A DNA stretch of 22,822 nucleotides, from NCBI RefSeq assembly GCF_026151205.1, contig NW_026971883.1, positions 1 through 22,822 of the forward strand, written 5' to 3'. The position numbers were made by a program, and so were the translations under genes. The notes beneath the pieces are model-generated. The model did no database searches and was not told where the DNA came from. It worked only from the letters and a program-made list of their open reading frames with translations. The DNA comes from Bolinopsis microptera (lineage: Eukaryota; Ctenophora; Tentaculata; Lobata; Bolinopsidae). Position 1 is the first letter of the stretch; every line of letters starts with the position of its first letter. This document shows positions 5,902 through 18,325 of the stretch, piece by piece.

Positions 5902-7480
5902 TAGGGTTTGCATTATCGGTCCAAAATTTTTTATCGCCGATAACCGATAATAATTTTTCAATTATCGGCGATAACGATAATTATCGGCGATAAAATTTGG
6001 TCAGAACAATTAGCTTATTTTCCATCGATTCAGTGGCTTAATTAATCATACGTTCATGATTTATAACTTCCGTGATTGAGGGTCATGAATTCCCGAGATA
6101 TCGTACACAAATTGTAAACGCGTAATTTCAAAATAGTCAATTAATTGAAAGTGAAGATCCGATATACTTTACAGTGAACAGTCAGTGACAATAACAATCT
6201 TACACAAAGTGGAACGCGTAATTCCAGAATTGTAAATTAATCAAAAGTGAAGTGGTAATAACAATCTCCCCCTATTTGTAATGTGTGCAAAGTTAGAACT
6301 TGCTACATAAGTAACTACTTAGAAGCTTTATTAGCAAAATAGTATTTCAGAAAAATCAACATATCTAAAGATTTGTCAGATAGTCTACATCTTAATTTCG
6401 TGAGAAAGAGTCCACTTGCACTGAAGGTCCGCTCTGCCTCAACAGACGTGGGCGGAATGTTCAAAATACGGAATGTTCATGGCATCTCTGATGAAACTGC
6501 TGGTTGCAATTTGATTAAAAGAGAGTCTGTCTACAGCCGCTAAACAGCTATACATTTCGGCTTGAGTTTTCTTTTCGATGTAAGATACTATTAGGGACTG
6601 ATTTTTTGGTCGCTTGACTTTGGGGGGATGCCGAAGGTTTATCATTATTAGCAGCTGCATTTTCTATACCGTGTTTAACTCTCAAGTGGTACCAAAGACT
6701 AGTGTAAGACCTTTTGGCTGTTGTGCTGAGAAAAGACTTGTCACATTGCATGCAGGCCACGTTGTCCCCCTCTTTTGTGAAATGTTTCCAGATCTCGTTG
6801 GTTGACATATCAAGATTAACTAGTTTTCCGAGACACAACAGAAAACAGATAACAACTGATACGTGTAACGTAATCAATCAACGATTTAAGCAAATGAGCG
6901 ACCCAGGCAAGTTAATCATAGGCATTTCTCAGGGGAGGGGCGTGGAGTGTGGACTGTGCAGGAGTGTATTGTGTTGTTATGATGTGTACTGTGTCGGGTT
7001 CAAATTATTACCTTATACGGTTGTAACTGAATTGATAGTTTGAAGTGAACAGCTTATCTGTAATAGGGTGGGCGAAACTACGGGATACTTATTACAGATT
7101 TACCGTTTAAACTTTAATTCCGTTGAATTCAAATATGCAACTATCCCATGAAATATGAATACTTTTACATAGTACATACCTTGTTTCACCAATCAACAGT
7201 GATAAGATAACATTGCAAATCTTGCTGATTTAAGTACTTAAGTAGCAAATTCAGATGTTTTGATCAGTTTCACACATATCTTATGATCAATCTTGTGAAA
7301 ATGGGAGGTAAGAATCTGCGAGTTAGCTGTTAAGTCTCGAAAATTCCGAAATTATTTTTGAAAAGAAATTTCTGAAATTATCGGTTTATCGGTCAGAAAT
7401 TATCGCCGATAACCGATAACGATTTTACTACGAATTATCGCCTATAATTTTATCGCCGATATTATCGATTGCAAACCCTA
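5902..7480 (-). mobile_element. hAT DNA transposon, internally deleted
   Basis: The 1,579-bp element has termini TAGGGTTTGCA at 5902 and the reverse complement TGCAAACCCTA at the right end (7480), and an exact 8-bp duplication GTCATAAA on both sides. Both subterminal regions (about 5930-5998 and 7377-7470) carry several near-palindromic TTATCGGCGATAA boxes, plausible transposase-binding repeats. The minus strand holds remnants of a BED-finger hAT transposase. The copy lies inside the older TTAA element and must be younger than it. It is non-autonomous because its transposase is broken. Confidence 0.95.
6315..6808 (-). pseudogene. hAT transposase remnant: BED finger joined to hAT C-terminal domain
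   Basis: Reading starts at 6808 (MSTNEIWKHFT), giving a BED zinc finger with CMQC and HLRVKH as ligand pairs, so the N-terminal DNA-binding domain is recognisable. A frameshift around the C-run near 6620-6630 moves the reading to another frame, which gives AAVDRLSFNQIATSSFIRD, the usual start of the hAT catalytic region. At 6453-6479 a large internal deletion joins this to the C-terminal dimerisation domain in a third frame (PPTSVEAERTFSASGLF and LSDKSLDMLIFLK), ending at a stop at 6315-6317. The RNase-H-like catalytic core is absent, so the product cannot be active. Confidence 0.9.
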
Positions 7481-8855: not shown

Positions 8856-9010
8856 GGTAGTATGAATAAATTTTTAAATTAAAATGTATAGTAATGTGCA
8901 GTTTTTGTTACGTGTTGATAATCTAGCTCTCTTATCTCTATTTTATCGCTACATTATAACTGCCATTGTGCGGGTACTGTGTTTTTACTTTATACAAGTA
9001 CATGTACACG

Positions 9011-9883
9011 ATGGATGATGATGAAATGGATATTCTTCAAAGATTGTCAAATTACTTTTCCTACATTACCGATCACCATCAGGTCTATAACTCTTGGGTC
9101 ACTGAACTCTCGGAAGCTATGAACTGTGACCATGAAAATGAGTTTTCAGCTGAAACGTTCAAAAAGCCAGTGAAGGCAGTTTTAGTCAAACATTTGTGTA
9201 ATGTGTATCGGACTACCAGTGATCATGTAGATACGTTTCTGGATATCAAGAAAGATATGGAGGAGTTGAAGAGCGATCTTATCCGATCGCAAAGTACTGT
9301 TATCAAGCTGCAGGCTGAACTTCTGGAAAGCAAATCGAAGCAATTGGAATCCGTGCACTCCACCGTCAAGACCACCGTCCAGGACACTGTTCAAGCTGGG
9401 ATAATCACATTCAGTCAAGCTGTTTCGAAAGCCGCACCTGTACTCACAGAAGAGAGCTTGAAAAAGGTTGTACAGAATGTTATATTAGAAGAGGATCGAA
9501 CTAAGAATGTGTTAATATTTGGTTTCGAGGAGACTAGTGAAGAGAATCTGAATCATGAAGTTGGCGAGATGTTTCAGCAGATTGAAGAAAAGCCACACTT
9601 CGAAGCTGTCCGGGTTGGGAAGAAGTCAGCTGAAAAGATTAGACCAGTTAAAGTTTCTTTTGAAAATTCAAGTACAGTCCATCAGATATTAGTGAAAGCC
9701 AAAGAACTGAGACTGATTTCACGTCATAAAACTGTTTTCATTTCTCCGGACCAATCACCTGAGGAACGAACTATCCATCAGCAGTTGGTCTTAGAGATGA
9801 AACAGATTGCCAAAGAAGACACAGATAAACATTATTATATCAGAAGTGGCAAAATTTGTTGTAAGGACAAGATAGTGGAGTGA
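9011..9883 (+). CDS. LINE ORF1 protein (coiled coil plus RNA-binding-type domain)
   Basis: This intact 290-residue ORF is a non-LTR retrotransposon ORF1 protein, the RNA-binding chaperone component of the retrotransposition particle. I choose MDDDEMDI at 9011; the frame also has upstream ATGs at 8966 and 9002. After an N-terminal segment, residues about 75-130 are heptad-rich and probably coiled coil (DIKKDMEELKSDLIRSQ and following). Residues about 165-235 look like an RRM-type fold, with NVLIFGFEET as a first strand and RPVKVSFEN further on. It ends with a VFISPDQSPEER segment followed by a basic helix, as in ORF1 proteins of CR1/Jockey-type LINEs. There is no zinc knuckle or PHD finger. 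No ORF2 follows on this strand. Family assignment is from pattern recognition, not a search. Confidence 0.8.
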   Translation: MDDDEMDILQRLSNYFSYITDHHQVYNSWVTELSEAMNCDHENEFSAETFKKPVKAVLVKHLCNVYRTTSDHVDTFLDIKKDMEELKSDLIRSQSTVIKLQAELLESKSKQLESVHSTVKTTVQDTVQAGIITFSQAVSKAAPVLTEESLKKVVQNVILEEDRTKNVLIFGFEETSEENLNHEVGEMFQQIEEKPHFEAVRVGKKSAEKIRPVKVSFENSSTVHQILVKAKELRLISRHKTVFISPDQSPEERTIHQQLVLEMKQIAKEDTDKHYYIRSGKICCKDKIVE

Positions 9884-9904
9884 ACGATTTATAATAATGT
9901 TTAA
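9884..9904 (+). mobile_element. ORF1-only LINE 3' UTR, first part
   Basis: Seventeen bases after the ORF1 stop, then the TTAA (9901-9904) used by the element inserted at 9905. The UTR resumes at 13796. Confidence 0.65.
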
Positions 9905-10230
9905 GACCCTGATCATTAGAAACACCCCTAAAAGTTCGTTTTTGAAAAAAAATTTAAAACATCCGTAATTTCTTTTCTGTTTTAGTTTTGCATTTAATTT
10001 TTTGTATGCGTATAGAAAATTAATACGGCTTAAAAATGAGATGTCCGGCGACCTCCTAGCTCACTCACAAGACTCAGTAGGAGTGATTGAACTGCGAGGG
10101 ACAATTGAGGCTAACGAATTTACTCATTATTTTCAAAAAAGAACATTCTCGTGTTACGTCCATGATATCCAAGTTGCAAGTATAATCCATAGTGATTATA
10201 CTTGATCGAGATCTAAGCTTTAATTATTCG

Positions 10231-11462
10231 AGGTGAAAATGAGACTAACCACCTTTTGAGAGGGTGAAATGAGGCTAACAAGTATACTTTTGTGTATATT
10301 TTTGAGCAGGTTCGGTATTGTGACTTTCTAATATAATGTCAACAATAAAAATGTATTCATCCTCTTCAAGCTCAACATTTCAGAAATCGCCGAGTCTACT
10401 TGTAGGAGGCTAAAATGAGGCTAATAAAGAATTTGACCGCATTTTAACTTTAATGTACGGAAACAGGTTATAGACCCACTAATAAACTTGTTATTGAAGC
10501 CCGAAGGTTATTGATACTTTATCGATATCTAAGCTCTTCAAATATTCGAGGTGAAAATGAGGCTAACCACCTTTTGAGAGGGTGAAATGAGGCTAACAAG
10601 TATACTTTTGTGTATATTTTTGAGCAGGTTCGGTATTGTGACAACAATACCTATCTAATGTGTCAACAATACAAATTTATTCATCCTCTTCAAGCTCAAC
10701 ATTTCAGAAATCGCCGAGTCTACTTGTAGGAGGCCAAAATGAGGCTAATAAAGAATTTGACCGCATTTTAACTTTAATGTACGGTAACAGGTTAACAACT
10801 CACAAGTTACTTGATATCTATGTTGCACATTAAATTCCTTGGGATTATAGCTTCAAATATTCGAGGTGAAAATGAGGCTAACCACCTTTTGAGAGGGTGA
10901 AATGAGGCTAACAAGTATACTTTTGTGTATATTTTTGAGCAGGTTCGGTATTGTGACTATCTAATGTGTCAACAATACAAATTTATTCATCCTCTTCAAG
11001 CTCAACATTTCAGAAATCGCCGAGTCTACTTGTAGGAGGCCAAAATGAGGCTAATAAAGAATTTGACCGCATTTTAACTTTAATGTACGGTAACAGGTTA
11101 ACAACTCACAAGTTACTTGATATCTATGTTGCACATTAAATTCCTTGGGATTATAGCTTCAAATATTCGAGGTGAAAATGAGGCTAACCACCTTTTGAGA
11201 GGGTGAAATGAGGCTAACAAGTATACTTTTGTGTATATTTTCGAGATGGTTCGGTATCATGACTATCTAATATGTCAGTTCAATAAAGATTGATTCATCC
11301 TCTTCAAACTCAATATTTCAGAAATCGCCGAGTTTACTTGTAGGAGGCTAAAATGAGGCTAATAAAGAATTTGACCGCATTTTAACTTTAATGTACGGAA
11401 ACATGTTATAGACCCACTATAAAACTTGTAATTGTAGCCCGAAGGTTATTGAGACTTTATCG
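10231..11462 (+). repeat. Left array: four tandem units of about 310 bp
   Basis: Units start with AGGTGAAAATGAG at 10231, 10549, 10864 and 11170 (steps 318, 315, 306). Each has three TGAGGCTAA sites (before ACCACC, before CAAG and in a TGAGGCTAATAAAG context); the first site of unit 1 is degenerate (GAGACTAAC). Units 2 and 3 share a tail (ACAACTCACAAGTTACTTGA) that differs from the tail of units 1 and 4, pointing to unit-level duplication or conversion. A decayed stretch with two more motifs follows to about 11525. Confidence 0.95.
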
Positions 11463-11525
11463 AAACTTATGTGAGGTTGGATTGAGGCTACCTTCCCTCC
11501 TTGAGGCAAAATTGAGGCTAACAGA

Positions 11526-12130
11526 TACACTACGCAGAAAAACGTCACTGTGCCAGCTGTCAAGTAGTTGCTGAGCAGCAGCAGCAGTTAGATGAAGAAA
11601 ATGAAGCTGAGGAAGGAAATGTATTCTAGAGCTGTTGGCTAGAGTAGGCCCCTTACTTCTATGGAGCTCTCTGGCCAATTGCTCTGGCAATGCTCTCCAT
11701 GGGGCCATGTAATATCACATGATCTGATATCATGCCAAATTAGACTCTAAACTATAAAGTATAATAAAAATGGAACTGTTTGAGAAATTTTACAAGGGAA
11801 GTCTTTATTTTGCTTGACACATCTCAAACGCAAGGAAATGTTTTTAAACAAATTATAAGTATACATTTTTCCAGAAGACGCAATGTAGGCTGATTAATGC
11901 ACTAATGAATAATAATCTACGTCAAGCTGCAGAATAACTCTAATATTTAAATCAATACCTCTTCGTGGTAGTACAACTGGCGAGAAGGCTCAAAAAAAGC
12001 AGTGCAATTAGTTTTGAAATGTGCGATTTTGAAAATAATAAGTGGCTTTCAAATGGGTCAAAAGTGGAGTTATATAAAGAAAATAAAAGCATCCAACATT
12101 AAAACTATCACTCATAAAATAGTATAATAA
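11526..12130. other. Central unique segment of the TTAA element
   Basis: This sequence lies between the two opposing arrays. Open frames here are short and show no domain, and I see no transposase remnant. Confidence 0.5.
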
Positions 12131-12136
12131 GCAGGA

Positions 12137-13500
12137 GTTAGCCTCAATCTTACCTCTCAAATGAATACAGGTTAGGCAGAAACAATTTGAAATTGAAGGG
12201 CTAGTCCGAAGAAGCAGTAGAACAAGAAATGCAATGAACACAACCTTGATAGTTAGCCTTATTTTACCCTCCATCAAAAGACAGAAAGGGTAGGTGGAGT
12301 CTACCATCGACCTAAAGTATCCATATAATGTATACCAGGGCAAAGGATAGTTTAAAGGACGTTATTGTTCAAACATAATTCAAAAATCAGAAAAGATCTG
12401 TTAGCCTCATTTTACCCTCCATTAGAAGGAAATGGGTGGGCCAGCCTTCGACATAGAGCATCCATCTCATGTATACCAGGGCAAAGGATAGTTTAAAGGA
12501 CGTTTTTGTTCAAACATACCTTAGTTCCCAAAAATTTGTGTGCCATTATATTGAGCACAATTTATTTGAGCCCGAAAAATTTGGGCAGAAAATTTGAACT
12601 CATTTGGGCGACCGAAAATTTGGGCACAAATTCTTCGAAAAATGAAAGATTTTCCACTAAAAAGTGAAATCTGTCATTTCACTTGATTAAGCCATGAATG
12701 ACAGATTAGAAAACTAAAATTTCGAATATTATTTCACTTGGATATGAAGAAAAAGCCATCTTTCTATAGATTTCAGGGCCACAGGCCAAATGCCAAAAGT
12801 TTGGTTAGCAAAAAATTTAGCTGACGGAAAAGATTTATGCAATTAATTTGGTCTGCAAAAAATTTGGGCGAGAGGCCCGCTCAAATTTTTTGTCGCCCAA
12901 ATTTTTGGGAATTAAGGTAATTCAAAAATTAGAAAAGATCTGTTAGCCTCATTTCCCCCTCCATTAGAAGGAAAAAAGGGGTCGGCTGGGCCAGCTTTCA
13001 ACCTAAAGAATCCATATCATGTATTTTAGGTCAGAGGATACTTGGATACGTTATTATTCAAATATAATTCACAACTTAGTAATGACTTGTTAGCCTCATT
13101 TCCCCCTCCATTAGAAGGAAAAAAGGGGTTGGCTCGGCCAGCCTTCAACTTAGAGCATCCATCTCATGTAATTTAGGTCAGAGGATACCTTGATAGACGT
13201 TATTATTAAATTATAATTCATGACTTAGTATTGACTTGTTAGCCTCATTCCCCCCTCCATTAGAAGGAAAAAAAGGGTCAGCTGGGCCAGCCTTCGACCT
13301 AGAGCATCAATCTCATTTATTTTAGGTCAGAGGATACTTTGATAGACGTTATTATTCAAATATAATTTCAAAATTATAAATAATCTGTTAGCCTCACTTT
13401 ACCCTCCATTAGAAGAAAACAAGGGGTCGGTTGGGCAATAATTCAAAAATTAGTAATAACTTGTTAGCCTCATTTTTCCCTCAATTAGTGAAAAAATTTC
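12137..13500 (-). repeat. Right array: about seven tandem units of roughly 148 bp
   Basis: GTTAGCCTCA, the reverse complement of the left-array motif, occurs at 12137, 12400, 12942, 13089, 13238, 13387 and 13463, with a degenerate copy at 12252. Spacing is about 148 bp once the inserted MITE is subtracted. Most copies are followed by a pyrimidine-rich block and CCTCCATTAGAAG. The units share little with the 310-bp left units apart from the motif. Confidence 0.93.
12519..12917. mobile_element. 399-bp MITE with TA target duplication
   Basis: Inverted termini CCTTAGTTCCCAAAAATTTG (left) and CCTTAATTCCCAAAAATTTG (right, reverse complement) are flanked by TA at 12517-12518 and 12918-12919. The neighbouring array unit has the uninterrupted sequence CAAACATAATTCAAAAAT at about 12370-12387. 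It serves as an empty site and fixes both ends and the 2-bp TA duplication. Multiple AAATTTGGGC motifs lie in subterminal positions. No ORF. TA duplication suggests Tc1/mariner-type mobilisation. Confidence 0.9.
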
Positions 13501-13795
13501 CCTCTTCTCTCTGGATTCTGAAAGAGTGAGATCTGATGAATCGATTAAACATGTTTAAACTTTTATAGCATGCTTGGAAGGTGTTATTAGGAGACAAAAT
13601 GTAAATGACTCGTTTGCCTCAATTTGCCCTCGACTAAATGCTTCAAAACTTTTATTAATCGAAACAAAATTAGTTAAACTATAGATATGTGAAATATCAT
13701 ATGCCTATCTTAAAAGTTCTTCCTGTGACAATCTTCTAAAGTTAAAATGGGAAAATGTGGTCCATCTCGTGCGAACTTTCCTAATGACCAGGGTC

Positions 13796-13909
13796 TTAAT
13801 GAGTATTGCTGAAAGCACAGTGTAAGGCCTACACGGACCGCCTCTAACTAGCCAATCCCTGTTTACATGCCGTGTAGCAGGGGACTAGAAAAATAAAATA
13901 AATAAATAA
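13796..13909 (+). mobile_element. ORF1-only LINE 3' UTR, second part, with A-rich tail
   Basis: This continues the LINE after the inserted element. It ends in AATAAAATAAATAAATAAAG (about 13891-13910), a typical LINE tail of short A-rich repeats. With the insert removed, the distance from the ORF1 stop to the tail is only about 130 bp, leaving no room for an ORF2. Confidence 0.7.
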
Positions 13910-14506: not shown

Positions 14507-17500
14507 CTAGATACATTGGCTAGTGTTGGGTGGGATCATGAATTTATCGTAAGAGTTATCCCCTTGGTAATTCTCATCAGTTAGCACCATATTCATAAGA
14601 GTTTCTTTGTATAACTTAGAAAATTTCTTAACGTCGTCACACTCTCTAAGGGACTTTGGTAATATGTTCCAGGCCTTAGTTCCTAGATAGTTAAACTCCT
14701 TGTGAGATCTTGATTTAGGAGTATAAAGATTGCAGTTTTCTGCCTCACGTGATCCACCAGAAATATACGAGAATTTCCCGATAAAATGCTTTGGACATGT
14801 TTCATTGATTATACGGTACATATATGAGCTAAGATGAACCTGTCGTCTCAAATGGAGAGGAAGCCATCCCATATTTTTGTATACATTAACCGACCTCTCT
14901 CTGATGTTTACATCTAGGGCTATTTTAGCAACCTTTTTGTACATGATATCTAACTCTCCTAGTCGTTTTTTATATGTTCTTGACCAGATGGTGTCTAAGT
15001 AGTCAAAATGTGGCAACATAAGTGCATTAGCAAACATCTTCCTGAACTTAAGAGGGAGAAGTTTTTTTGATCTATACATAGCACCAATTCTTTTGGATAT
15101 CTTTTTCTTAATGTTATCAATATGTTCATTAAATGTCAATCTGCTGTCAACTATAAGTCCAAGGTACTTATGGGATTTAGTTTCACAGATTACCAAAGTA
15201 AGGTCATCACAAATTTCAACAAGGATGGCATCAAGGTTAGGCTTAGAGTCAAGGATCATTAGTTTTGTTTTTTCATTATTCAGGGATAGTTTATTAGCCT
15301 GAAGCCATCTGATAACTAATTTCAACTCTTGTTTGATGTTACCATAGTTTCCTCTAGATATATTGTCAAAATATAATGCACCGTCATCAGCAAATAGATA
15401 AGGTTTAGAAAATAGGCATGCATTAGGCAGGTCATTGATAAAAATGCTGAATAGAATTGGTCCTAATATACTTCCTTGAGGCACTCCAGAGTTCAATGAA
15501 TGTACACTGCTTATCCTACTCCCAACTCTAGTTTGCTGTAATCTATCTGTGAGGAAGCTCCTAAACCAGCTCAATGCAGTATCTTTTATTCCATAATGCT
15601 TCAGCTTTTGAATGAGAATATCATGGTTAACAGTATCAAATGCCTTTCTGATGTCCAGGAAGATAATTGCAGGATGCTTGGCACTGTTCTTAGCGGTAAA
15701 TATACGATCAAACAGATCTAACATGAGATAAGTTGTAGAGTGATCTTTACGGAAACCATATTGATGCTCTGAAAGTATTCCCTTTTCATCAAGATATTGA
15801 GTCAGTTGGGAGTTCACACAAAATTCGATGCACTTTCCAAGAATCGGTAAAATTGAGATTGGTCGATAATTACTAGGATTCTCAGTATCACCATCCTTAT
15901 GGATTGGGGTGACTTTTGCAACCTTGCAGCTGTTTGGCATGATGCCACTGGATAAACTCAAATTTACAAGATGTGTTAATGGAGCAATAAATGCAGGTAA
16001 AATTTGTCTAAACACTCTCAATGGTATACGATCATTAGTGGATTTGCTACAAGGGATACTTGCCACATAGTCTAAGATATTGGACTCAGTTATTTCAGTA
16101 AAGCTATGCAAGCTGGTCTCGTTGTCAATCTGCTCATTTTGTAGATAAGATAGAAATTCATTTTCATTTTCCAGCTGCACTTCTGCTTGGATCTTTGGAC
16201 CTATTTCAGCAAAATATTTATTGGTGGTTTCAGCATCAAGATTGTTATTGATATTGTTAGCTTTAACAGGCAGATTTGATGCTGTCTTTATCGTTTTCCA
16301 TACACCCTTTAGATCATTCATGGCACACTTGGCTTTCAGTTCTGTTGCTAAGTTAGTCTTCCTATTAATTCTAGACAAATGGGTTGAATAGTTTCTCTGC
16401 CGTTTATATGCCATCCATAATGAGTCACATTTATTACAGTGTATAAGACCATTTGGATGTATACGTCTGTTCTTGTTGTGTGTTAAAAATTTACGGTAAA
16501 GTTTCCCTTTCAATTTCTTACTTTCTAAAAATTCTGGAGATGGCTTATGGATGTAATCACTATGGCACTTAATTTGTTTAATTGGACAGAATTGATCATA
16601 GTAGTGATCAATATGTTCGTTTAAACCATCAACTGCATCATTCAGACTAGTTGAATCTATTATTGGTCTATAATCACAAGTTTCCAAAAATTCTTTAAGA
16701 GCAGTAACATTCATTTTGCTGTGATCTCTTATTAGTAACTTCTTGAATTTTGAGGCCTTATGCACATTGAAATCGACAATGAACTTTACGACCTGATGAT
16801 CTCCTATACAATCATCAAGGACTTTGCAGTCAAGAAACTTGGAGTAAGTGTTTGTTATGACAACATCGATTGTGGTCTTTGTGATTCTGTTTCCTAGTTT
16901 AGCAATGCGGGTAATATCCTGAACTACCTGTACCATTCCAAACATTTTCATTGTAATGTCTAATTTCTTATAGTTCATACTGCTGATGTTGTTTTGGTCT
17001 ACATTTACATCACTCAGCCAAATAACATTCTTACTTCCTATACTCATCATGCAGTCTGTCATATAATCTAAAAATTTGTCAAGAGGACTAAACAACTCAG
17101 ATCTGTAGAAACAGCAGATGAAAATATTGCAATCTGTAAGATGGATCCAAATAGCCTCGATTTGGTCATATTGCAAAACTAAGTTTAGTTGAATCATTTT
17201 AAACTTTATGTGCTCACTGATGAGAATGCCACATCCCCCATGACCATTGTCGTTAGGACGGTCTTTGCGGATAAAAGTAAAATTCTTGGGTAGGTTTAGA
17301 CTGGCTGAGTCAATATCCGACTTAAGATTTGTTTCATTCAGGCATAAAACATCTAATTTCTCTTTCCAGATTAGATCTTGGATTTCAAGACATTTTGGCA
17401 TACCTGTTAGTCCTCCCTGCATGTTGCAATGTCCCACTGCAAGCTTTTTGGCATGGTATGAAACTGTGATTTTACTAATGCACGGGTTAATGCAAGAACT

Positions 17501-17527
17501 GCTGTGAGAGCATGAAAATTTTTCCAA
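14507..17527 (-). CDS. LINE ORF2: AP endonuclease plus reverse transcriptase, intact
   Basis: An uninterrupted 1,006-codon ORF for the polyprotein that nicks the target and copies LINE RNA by target-primed reverse transcription. The APE-type endonuclease (about 28-252) has HCNMQGG (N35), LNETN (E65), LSDVNVD (D173, N175), TTIDVVIT (D221) and GDHQVV (D243, H244). The RT (about 530-770) shows NYRPISILP, YGFRKDHST, FLDIRKAFD (D625), GVPQGSILGP, LFADDGALY (FADD 712-715), LSLNNEKTK and KYLGLIVD. The C-terminal part has the GTKAWNILPKSLRE block common in CR1/Jockey-group LINEs. All expected catalytic positions are present, and the absence of stops or frameshifts suggests a young copy. The start MEKFSC is the first in-frame Met. 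No ORF1 is visible upstream on this strand. It differs in strand from the ORF1 at 9011-9883 and is a separate insertion. Confidence 0.96.
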   Translation of the reverse strand: MEKFSCSHSSSCINPCISKITVSYHAKKLAVGHCNMQGGLTGMPKCLEIQDLIWKEKLDVLCLNETNLKSDIDSASLNLPKNFTFIRKDRPNDNGHGGCGILISEHIKFKMIQLNLVLQYDQIEAIWIHLTDCNIFICCFYRSELFSPLDKFLDYMTDCMMSIGSKNVIWLSDVNVDQNNISSMNYKKLDITMKMFGMVQVVQDITRIAKLGNRITKTTIDVVITNTYSKFLDCKVLDDCIGDHQVVKFIVDFNVHKASKFKKLLIRDHSKMNVTALKEFLETCDYRPIIDSTSLNDAVDGLNEHIDHYYDQFCPIKQIKCHSDYIHKPSPEFLESKKLKGKLYRKFLTHNKNRRIHPNGLIHCNKCDSLWMAYKRQRNYSTHLSRINRKTNLATELKAKCAMNDLKGVWKTIKTASNLPVKANNINNNLDAETTNKYFAEIGPKIQAEVQLENENEFLSYLQNEQIDNETSLHSFTEITESNILDYVASIPCSKSTNDRIPLRVFRQILPAFIAPLTHLVNLSLSSGIMPNSCKVAKVTPIHKDGDTENPSNYRPISILPILGKCIEFCVNSQLTQYLDEKGILSEHQYGFRKDHSTTYLMLDLFDRIFTAKNSAKHPAIIFLDIRKAFDTVNHDILIQKLKHYGIKDTALSWFRSFLTDRLQQTRVGSRISSVHSLNSGVPQGSILGPILFSIFINDLPNACLFSKPYLFADDGALYFDNISRGNYGNIKQELKLVIRWLQANKLSLNNEKTKLMILDSKPNLDAILVEICDDLTLVICETKSHKYLGLIVDSRLTFNEHIDNIKKKISKRIGAMYRSKKLLPLKFRKMFANALMLPHFDYLDTIWSRTYKKRLGELDIMYKKVAKIALDVNIRERSVNVYKNMGWLPLHLRRQVHLSSYMYRIINETCPKHFIGKFSYISGGSREAENCNLYTPKSRSHKEFNYLGTKAWNILPKSLRECDDVKKFSKLYKETLMNMVLTDENYQGDNSYDKFMIPPNTSQCI

Positions 17528-18325
17528 TTTATGCTGCTATAAACTTGTCAGAATAAGATAATATGGATATACTTCTTTATTTTCAGCAGCTAGTATGTTA
17601 GCGCGCATAACAAGGCGCGTTAGCATTTTACCGCAATTCTAGGTTTCACTGATTTCACAATACACAATACTGAATACACAATATGTCCAATTTGATTCTA
17701 ATTGTTGCTCCTAATCTGATAATTCTAATGACAGTGACTGCTCCCTATTAACCAACCGACCAACATTTTCAGTCGAACCCTAAAATTACTAATACCAAAT
17801 TTAAACCCCACATATGCGTGTAGTCTCCAAATCTTCTCTCTGCTCTCGGACTTTGTTCTTTTGAATAGAACTGTTTGTATACTTTAACAAATAGTGATTT
17901 TAACTTTGAGATAAACTGCTAGATTATTATATTTTTGTACCAATGTTCACCTAACTTAACGTCTCTCACTGACACCATCACCCGGCAACCAATTTTAAAG
18001 TATAATTTATTAACGATCTGACTACAGACTGGCGGTCAACGTTCCCCGTATAGTAGCTCAACGGAAGGGGTAATCAGGGCACGTGTTAATGAAAAATGTA
18101 CGTGTCCTTCCACAATCCCCTCTGTTGGGTCACACGTTATTGGGAACTGAGATCGCTATCGTGTAACTAGAAGCAGTATATGCAAAGTAACTTAGGTAAT
18201 AGGTGATAGGCAATATGAAATTACACATCTAACTTTAACTTTATCCCGTCACTTATGGACTTATCAATTAACGGCTGGTGGTGGTGTCATTGTTTGTCGT
18301 ACTCAAAACGTTTCGCGGTTGCGAA
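17528..18325. other. Upstream of LINE ORF2; no gene seen
   Basis: If the LINE continues upstream of its ORF2, its 5' UTR lies here, but I find no ORF1 on the minus strand. A weak inverted repeat lies around 18050-18130 (CAACGGAAGGGG against CCCCTCTGTTG). Nothing else is supported. Confidence 0.5.

Follow-up and report, generated by a model that had tools for sequence, protein, structure and literature searches.

The window analysed here, 22,822 nucleotides of the ctenophore Bolinopsis microptera (contig NW_026971883.1, positions 1 to 22,822, forward strand), contains at positions 9905-13795 a non-autonomous DNA transposon of 3,891 base pairs (bp), one of many copies in the genome. It begins with GACCCTGATCATTAG (9905-9919), ends with CTAATGACCAGGGTC (13781-13795), and carries two opposing arrays of a 20-bp bipartite site. 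In the left arm, this site is conserved among copies of the family, but not where another transposon carries the element's left half along. The parts of the element are, in order of position:

9901-9904: left target site duplication TTAA, a direct repeat; other 4-mers stand at most other copies
9905-13795, plus strand: whole element, a member of the GACCCTGGTCATTAG family of non-autonomous DNA transposons, identified by its termini, 4-bp flanking duplication and genomic relatives
9905-9919, plus strand: GACCCTGATCATTAG, the left terminal inverted repeat (in the family generally GACCCTGGTCATTAG), with the left-type subterminal sequence AAACACCCCTAAAAGTTCG next to it; 91 left-type ends in the genome, chimera ends included (34-base pattern, up to 3 mismatches)
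10096-11522, plus strand: left array of 15 bipartite sites GAGGNNNAAWTGAGGCTAAC, all plus, with start-to-start distances of mostly 30, 142-152 and 129-134 bp
10096-10115, plus strand: outermost left site, in several divergent copies half of an inverted pair, the reverse half of which is decayed here
10216-11408, plus strand: 306-bp tandem units, 3.8 copies, 90% matches
11523-12136: centre between the arrays, 614 bp, with no recognised coding region
12137-13631, minus strand: right array of 9 bipartite sites, all minus, the outermost 184 bp from the right end
12519-12917: nested separate element of 399 bp inside the right array, with ends CCTTAGTTCCCAAAAATTTG / CAAATTTTTGGGAATTAAGG and a TA duplication
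12918-13436, minus strand: 149-bp tandem units, 3.5 copies, 85% matches
13781-13795, minus strand: right terminal inverted repeat, followed inward by the right-type subterminal sequence GAAAGTTCGCACGAG; 77 right-type ends in the genome (30-base pattern, up to 3 mismatches)
13796-13799: right target site duplication TTAA, a direct repeat; other 4-mers stand at most other copies

The site consists of two GAGG boxes 11 bp apart, about one helical turn, the second of which runs on as TGAGGCTAAC. All 24 GAGGNNNAAWTGAGGCTAAC sites of the window lie inside the element, 15 on the plus strand in the left arm and 9 on the minus strand in the right, with 0-2 mismatches each, whereas shuffling predicts 0.15 per window at up to 3 mismatches. 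At up to one mismatch, TGAGGCTAAC occurs 27 times in the window, 24 of them inside the element, against 1.12 expected per window (100 shuffles). Genome-wide, GAGGNNNAAWTGAGGCTAAC has 445 exact occurrences and the reversed pattern has none.

The initial annotation, made from the sequence of the window, had described 12 exact plus-strand copies of the 10-mer TGAGGCTAA at 10270-11515 and seven exact reverse-complement copies, lying in two unlike tandem arrays of about 310 and 148 bp. Our recount agrees with both numbers (the latter sites start at 12138-13464) and adds a 13th plus-strand copy at 10106, and the measured periods are 306 and 149 bp. The 10-mer had also been taken for the only feature common to both arms; this proved too narrow, as all 24 sites fit the 20-bp GAGGNNNAAWTGAGGCTAAC. 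In the 29 copies whose two ends were paired, GAGG stands exactly 11 bp upstream in 240 of 287 core sites, in the picking of which the upstream box played no part. The arms therefore share the bipartite site and not a mere 10-mer.

That the motif always points inward holds for the copy in the window but not for the family. A site was located in 29 rows, among them the window itself (L068) and two chimeras described below (L001, L002); in 11 of the 29 the outer left site is an inverted pair, TGAGGCTAACRAATTAGCCTCA (9 exact, 2 near). This count is a lower bound because a site farther in was chosen at L007, L020 and L025, and L020 does hold the inverted pair, judged by its site positions. The reverse half was lost in the subfamily of the window copy. 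Distances between successive sites of the right array are 115, 148, 542, 147, 149, 149, 76 and 149 bp from start to start, the longest including the nested inverted-repeat element of 399 bp, which the matches of other copies skip (among the matches listed). A 117-amino-acid minus-strand frame (12008-12361), overlapping the end of the centre, has no Pfam match over the cut-off.

Copies of the family and their target duplications

The genome searched comprises 264.65 Mb in 232 contigs. It holds at least 93 matches to the element (best 40 of 685 candidates scored), so that the initial view of a transposable element with inverted terminal repeats is borne out by many copies. The shortest of the 29 paired copies has 110 bp and the longest, L007, which contains a retroelement, has 7.6 kb. 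Their 4-bp flanking duplications are identical in 19 cases, differ by one mismatch in five and are unmatched in five, where 0.31 exact cases are expected; L009 and L010 are one insertion present in two places. Two wider end pairs (15 kb and 17 kb) are also flanked by matching 4-mers. Terminal inverted repeats with a duplication of fixed length at independent sites mark the family as a cut-and-paste transposon. The specificity for TTAA that had been assumed is not found: the duplications are of varied sequence, and TTAA accounts for two of the 19 exact cases, the window copy and L052.

The left flank of the insertion in the window is a repeated ORF1-like element and the right flank is another repeat; none of the 49 matches listed in a search for its empty site (best 40 of 432 candidates) crosses the junction. 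Elsewhere, three copies of the element occur at a 3,042-bp period on C10:9185733-9194289, probably a segmental duplication, and a family member of ~4 kb contains a minisatellite (L071:1225-2334).

The left-arm site is conserved in family copies and not in chimeric passengers

Many genomic matches end at element position 1883 (among the matches listed), because chimeras such as L001 and L002 hold the left half only. These two chimeric transposons with GGGGTACC-type ends (L001:160-3500; L002:2586-5927) are units of ~3.3 kb, 99% alike, which have other ends (GGGGTACCAATGGCATA...) and bear the left half of the family together with an open reading frame of ~330 amino acids. The left half within the unit is thus a passenger. 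This frame has 16 full or near-full genomic matches without a stop, and many of the left-type ends in the genome belong to chimeras. L002 is flanked by TAACGGAG on both sides, the exact length of the duplication being uncertain because the flank lies within a G/C run. L075-L080 were taken for chimeras from adjoining matches to the frame and, except L079, from the stop at 1883.

In eight chimeras, mismatches are about as frequent in the left-arm site (24/1606) as in the rest (153/9496; ratio 0.93, p=0.83). The ratio is 0.29 in ten copies of the window's subfamily (13/1444 vs 263/8566) and 0.37 in 16 divergent copies (42/1473 vs 666/8652). The latter are a set of 15 plus L073, eight of them paired at both ends and eight one-ended or unpaired; those without both ends paired have a ratio of 0.41. 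In these counts, and in the 10-mer comparison below, aligned segments were excluded if they fell short of 80 bp or if their overlap with a stretch used before exceeded 20%. When only paired copies are used, the ratios are 0.31 for nine subfamily copies (12/1240 vs 230/7441) and 0.33 for eight divergent ones (18/735 vs 331/4478), and the share of mismatches that falls in the site differs between chimeras and either group (p=0.0012 for paired divergent, p=0.0025 for paired subfamily copies). Variable columns in site and rest number 21/204 vs 122/1273 in chimeras, 4/255 vs 147/1326 in the subfamily and 32/204 vs 287/1273 in divergent copies; counted in this way, chimeras differ from the subfamily with p=0.00023. 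Selection on the motif, as first suggested, is thus supported by conservation in family copies that is absent in chimeras. The function of repeated subterminal motifs has often been argued only from position and repetition. Here, the same left array occurs in two settings within one genome, which makes array function testable from sequence.

A comparison of the motif with its surroundings across copies, proposed in the initial annotation, also favours the motif, more weakly for the right arm against other copies. In a comparison with 18 divergent loci, L013 (an old chimera) among them, the site shows 92.5% conservation over its 17 fixed columns, a value reached by none of 202 other offsets, which average 86.1%. 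Likewise, none of the 202 offsets reaches the 20-bp site in the left arm alone. For the 10-mer by itself the values are 92.2% vs 86.3% elsewhere, with 0 of 218 offsets reaching it (2 of 218 in the left arm). Unit-to-unit similarity in the window's right array is 95.0% for the site, 80.2% for the rest and 56.7% for the NNN within the site, and this order is kept in the right arms of all eight copies examined. In left arms the site is the most alike part in all seven copies with data, narrowly so in L006 (0.922 vs 0.913); the left arm of L003 has no alignable unit pair.

Ten young copies, with a mean similarity of 0.981 (minimum 0.968) over their joined termini, vary in array size, carrying 6-15 left sites and 5-9 right sites. 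For these copies, 52 right-array units were taken in which the sites stand 120-175 bp apart. When different copies are compared at matching unit positions, numbered from the right end, similarity is 0.907 (197 pairs), against 0.700 for units within one copy (115 pairs), and the nearest neighbour of a unit stands at the same position in 30 cases, elsewhere in another copy in 19 and in the same copy in 3. The difference between these two values indicates that the right array was built, and its units diverged, before the young copies spread. For the right array, the "independent amplification" proposed earlier therefore finds no support if recent amplification is meant.

Possible function of the arrays

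The element is a non-autonomous cut-and-paste transposon with 15-bp terminal inverted repeats and 4-bp duplications of variable sequence. We favour, with some reserve, a reading in which the sites of both arms are bound by the transposase of the family or by an accessory protein of its autonomous partner. Conserved in family copies but not in passengers, the motif probably serves as the binding site of the protein that mobilises the element when it moves by its own ends. The spacing of the two GAGG boxes, one helical turn, would suit a protein that contacts the DNA from one side, and the arrays may aid recognition and pairing of the two ends. Such arrays would act as a transposition enhancer and not as an absolute need; an enhancer is likelier than an essential component because 110-bp copies without any site exist at two loci. 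The 20-bp site offers a concrete bait for the protein that moves the family.

Precedents for binding of this kind may be seen in TNPA of En/Spm and in the THAP domain of the Galileo transposase. In En/Spm and other CACTA elements, subterminal repeats are bound by TNPA, and defective copies are described as mobile if the cis motifs are kept (PMC2613891). As in En/Spm, a short terminal inverted repeat is here combined with repeats of a short motif in the subterminal region of either end. The binder is known and element-encoded there but hypothetical here, and the CACTA ends and 3-bp duplications of En/Spm contrast with the GACCC ends, 4-bp duplications and unlike 306-bp and 149-bp units of the present family. 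For Galileo, a P superfamily element of Drosophila, several THAP-binding sites in the long terminal inverted repeats, two within internal direct repeats, have been described and a higher-order synaptic complex proposed (PMC3688188). Several sites in repeats are common to both systems, transposase-bound there and putatively bound here; the long ends of Galileo are mutually inverted copies with sites in the first two of four repeats, whereas the two arms here share only the site. The foldback transposon Tetris resembles the family in being non-autonomous with internal tandem repeats of variable number (~220 bp in Tetris), but it has 8-10 bp duplications and long inverted arms, and the part of its description available to us mentions no conserved short motif (PMC4079207).

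Several observations weigh against binding of both arms by a transposition protein. No autonomous partner or transposase turned up in the loci read, which leaves the binding protein hypothetical. With up to one core mismatch allowed, five of the 29 paired copies still lack the site (L009 and L010, the single insertion, and L014, L043 and L047). The 110-bp L014 and L043 have three base differences and different flanks, so that this site-free form was either mobile or arose twice; its duplication is exact at L014 and has one mismatch at L043. The passenger control concerns the left arm only, and the excess conservation is weaker in the right arm, where 6 of 202 offsets reach the 20-bp site and 25 of 218 reach the 10-mer alone. 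By base, the A, C and G columns of the site stand above background but the T columns do not (0.869 vs 0.864). One chimera, L013, supplies 13 of the 24 site mismatches; without it the chimera ratio is 0.89 (11/1410 vs 73/8300), with p=0.014 against paired divergent and 0.023 against paired subfamily copies. When variable columns are counted, chimeras do not differ significantly from all divergent copies (site 21/143 vs 32/319, p=0.16), and this p-value, like the others, is indicative only because the copies are related.

A host protein, such as a transcription, replication or chromatin factor, might instead bind the site and aid the spread of the element, perhaps through more open chromatin or through the timing of transposition. 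We consider this unlikely. The conservation depends on the site's being in its own element, yet no element-encoded protein was found, and spacings of ~143-149 bp, close to nucleosome length, are present in both arms. Nothing pointed to use of the site by the host outside the family, however: 85 of the 100 double sites listed (108 in all) lie within 3 kb of family ends, and 11 of the other 15 adjoin family or chimera matches, the remaining four being unassigned (C1:11721502, C6:8959055, C6:10262590 and C7:3766142).

It is more improbable still that the site served as promoter or repressor element for a coding region since lost, inherited from a master copy in which it controlled the transposase gene and unneeded by non-autonomous copies. 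TNPA bound to the En/Spm subterminal repeats also blocks transcription (PMC2613891), but the sites here stand in both arms and point inward. In addition, no coding copy was seen among those read, yet in the subfamily the site has a far smaller share of variable columns than the rest.

We think it very unlikely that the motif is a functionless word in satellite-like arrays, mutating slowly or homogenised by recombination. Tandem arrays within transposons are known, as in Tetris (PMC4079207), but right-array units that are 0.700 alike within a copy nevertheless keep a highly similar site, and the excess conservation is absent from chimeric passengers holding the same left array.

Affiliation, partner search and neighbouring features

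A TTAA-specific derivative of piggyBac or Kolobok, the affiliation suggested at first, deserves practically no credence: TTAA flanks the window copy and L052, and the GA...TC of both ends fits the 5'-RR...YY-3' rule described for Kolobok termini (PMC9587614), but 17 of 19 exact duplications are not TTAA, no piggyBac domain hit listed lies near the family ends, and the THAP-domain Kolobok-like elements L055 and L056 have a different right end and no site.

Among 26 DDE_Tnp_1_7 (piggyBac domain) hits listed, in a search that may miss weak matches, none comes closer than 100,305 bp to one of the 168 family ends. At L055 and L056 the right end, the only end compared, reads ...ACTGGTCC before TTTAA, and no bipartite site is present in these elements. 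Kolobok ends thus resemble those of the family, while its duplications are described as TTAA-specific where ours are variable (PMC9587614). P2RX7_C (ballast) domain matches occur at 49 genomic places, in L055 next to a THAP-domain transposase frame, and KolX proteins with this domain have been described in Kolobok (PMC9587614). The P2RX7_C domain of L008 was rejected as a part of the family, as L008 contains a piece of a Kolobok-like element resembling L055.

The family does not fit CACTA/EnSpm, which has a CACTA-type terminus and a 3-bp duplication and not a GACCC terminus and a 4-bp one. Duplications of ~4 bp are found in Sola, Academ, Chapaev and others. The ~330-amino-acid chimera frame was rejected as the family transposase: its relatives L039 and L040 have GGGGG-type ends (GGGGGTAATGCAACGACC), similar direct repeats near both ends, 8-bp duplications (TGTTAGAT and TTTAAGGT) and no bipartite site. 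Transposase-like frames occur here:

L039:1983-3545 and L040:1908-3470: 521 amino acids
L041:145-2442: 766 amino acids

Those of L039 and L041 have no Pfam match over the cut-off. The 13-base end GACCCTGGTCATT occurs in none of the papers listed in a literature search, and literature on this family, judged by titles and abstract openings, was not found. Tentatively, the family might form a lineage of an undescribed superfamily, with near-palindromic GACCCTGGTC ends, untargeted 4-bp duplications, a two-armed array of bipartite sites as a long-range synapsis enhancer and the chimeric passenger as a natural loss-of-selection control; we regard this combination as possible though doubtful.

One genome search for a partner gave 228 places, of which the best 100 were listed. 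No recognised transposase was seen at 11 exact-end loci with other subterminal sequence, 11 unpaired ends and four site-bearing loci, where frames were judged by eye and some by Pfam, most other unpaired ends being left unread. The largest end pairs (7.6 kb at L007, 15 kb at L019 and L020, 17 kb on C7) contain nested retroelements or exon-like frames. A 186-amino-acid frame is present in L073 (210-767). In the pair on C7:1784216-1801390 (L021, L026, L027 and L022), 17 kb separate a right from a left family end, TAGC flanks either side and the interval contains exon-like frames. Another left end, flanked in the same way, follows after a further 4,544 bp; this is possibly a macro-transposition, or a coincidence.

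Other features of the window lie outside the element:

8960-9883, plus strand: 307-amino-acid frame with no Pfam match, probably the ORF1 belonging to a non-LTR element; the final 165 bases of the frame and the sequence downstream recur at 89-99% in at least 18 other places (among the matches listed)
14507-17536, minus strand: open frame of 1,009 amino acids that matches the reverse transcriptase domain PF00078 (3e-37) and by inference is a non-LTR retroelement
6548-6877, minus strand: BED zinc finger (PF02892, 1.4e-4)

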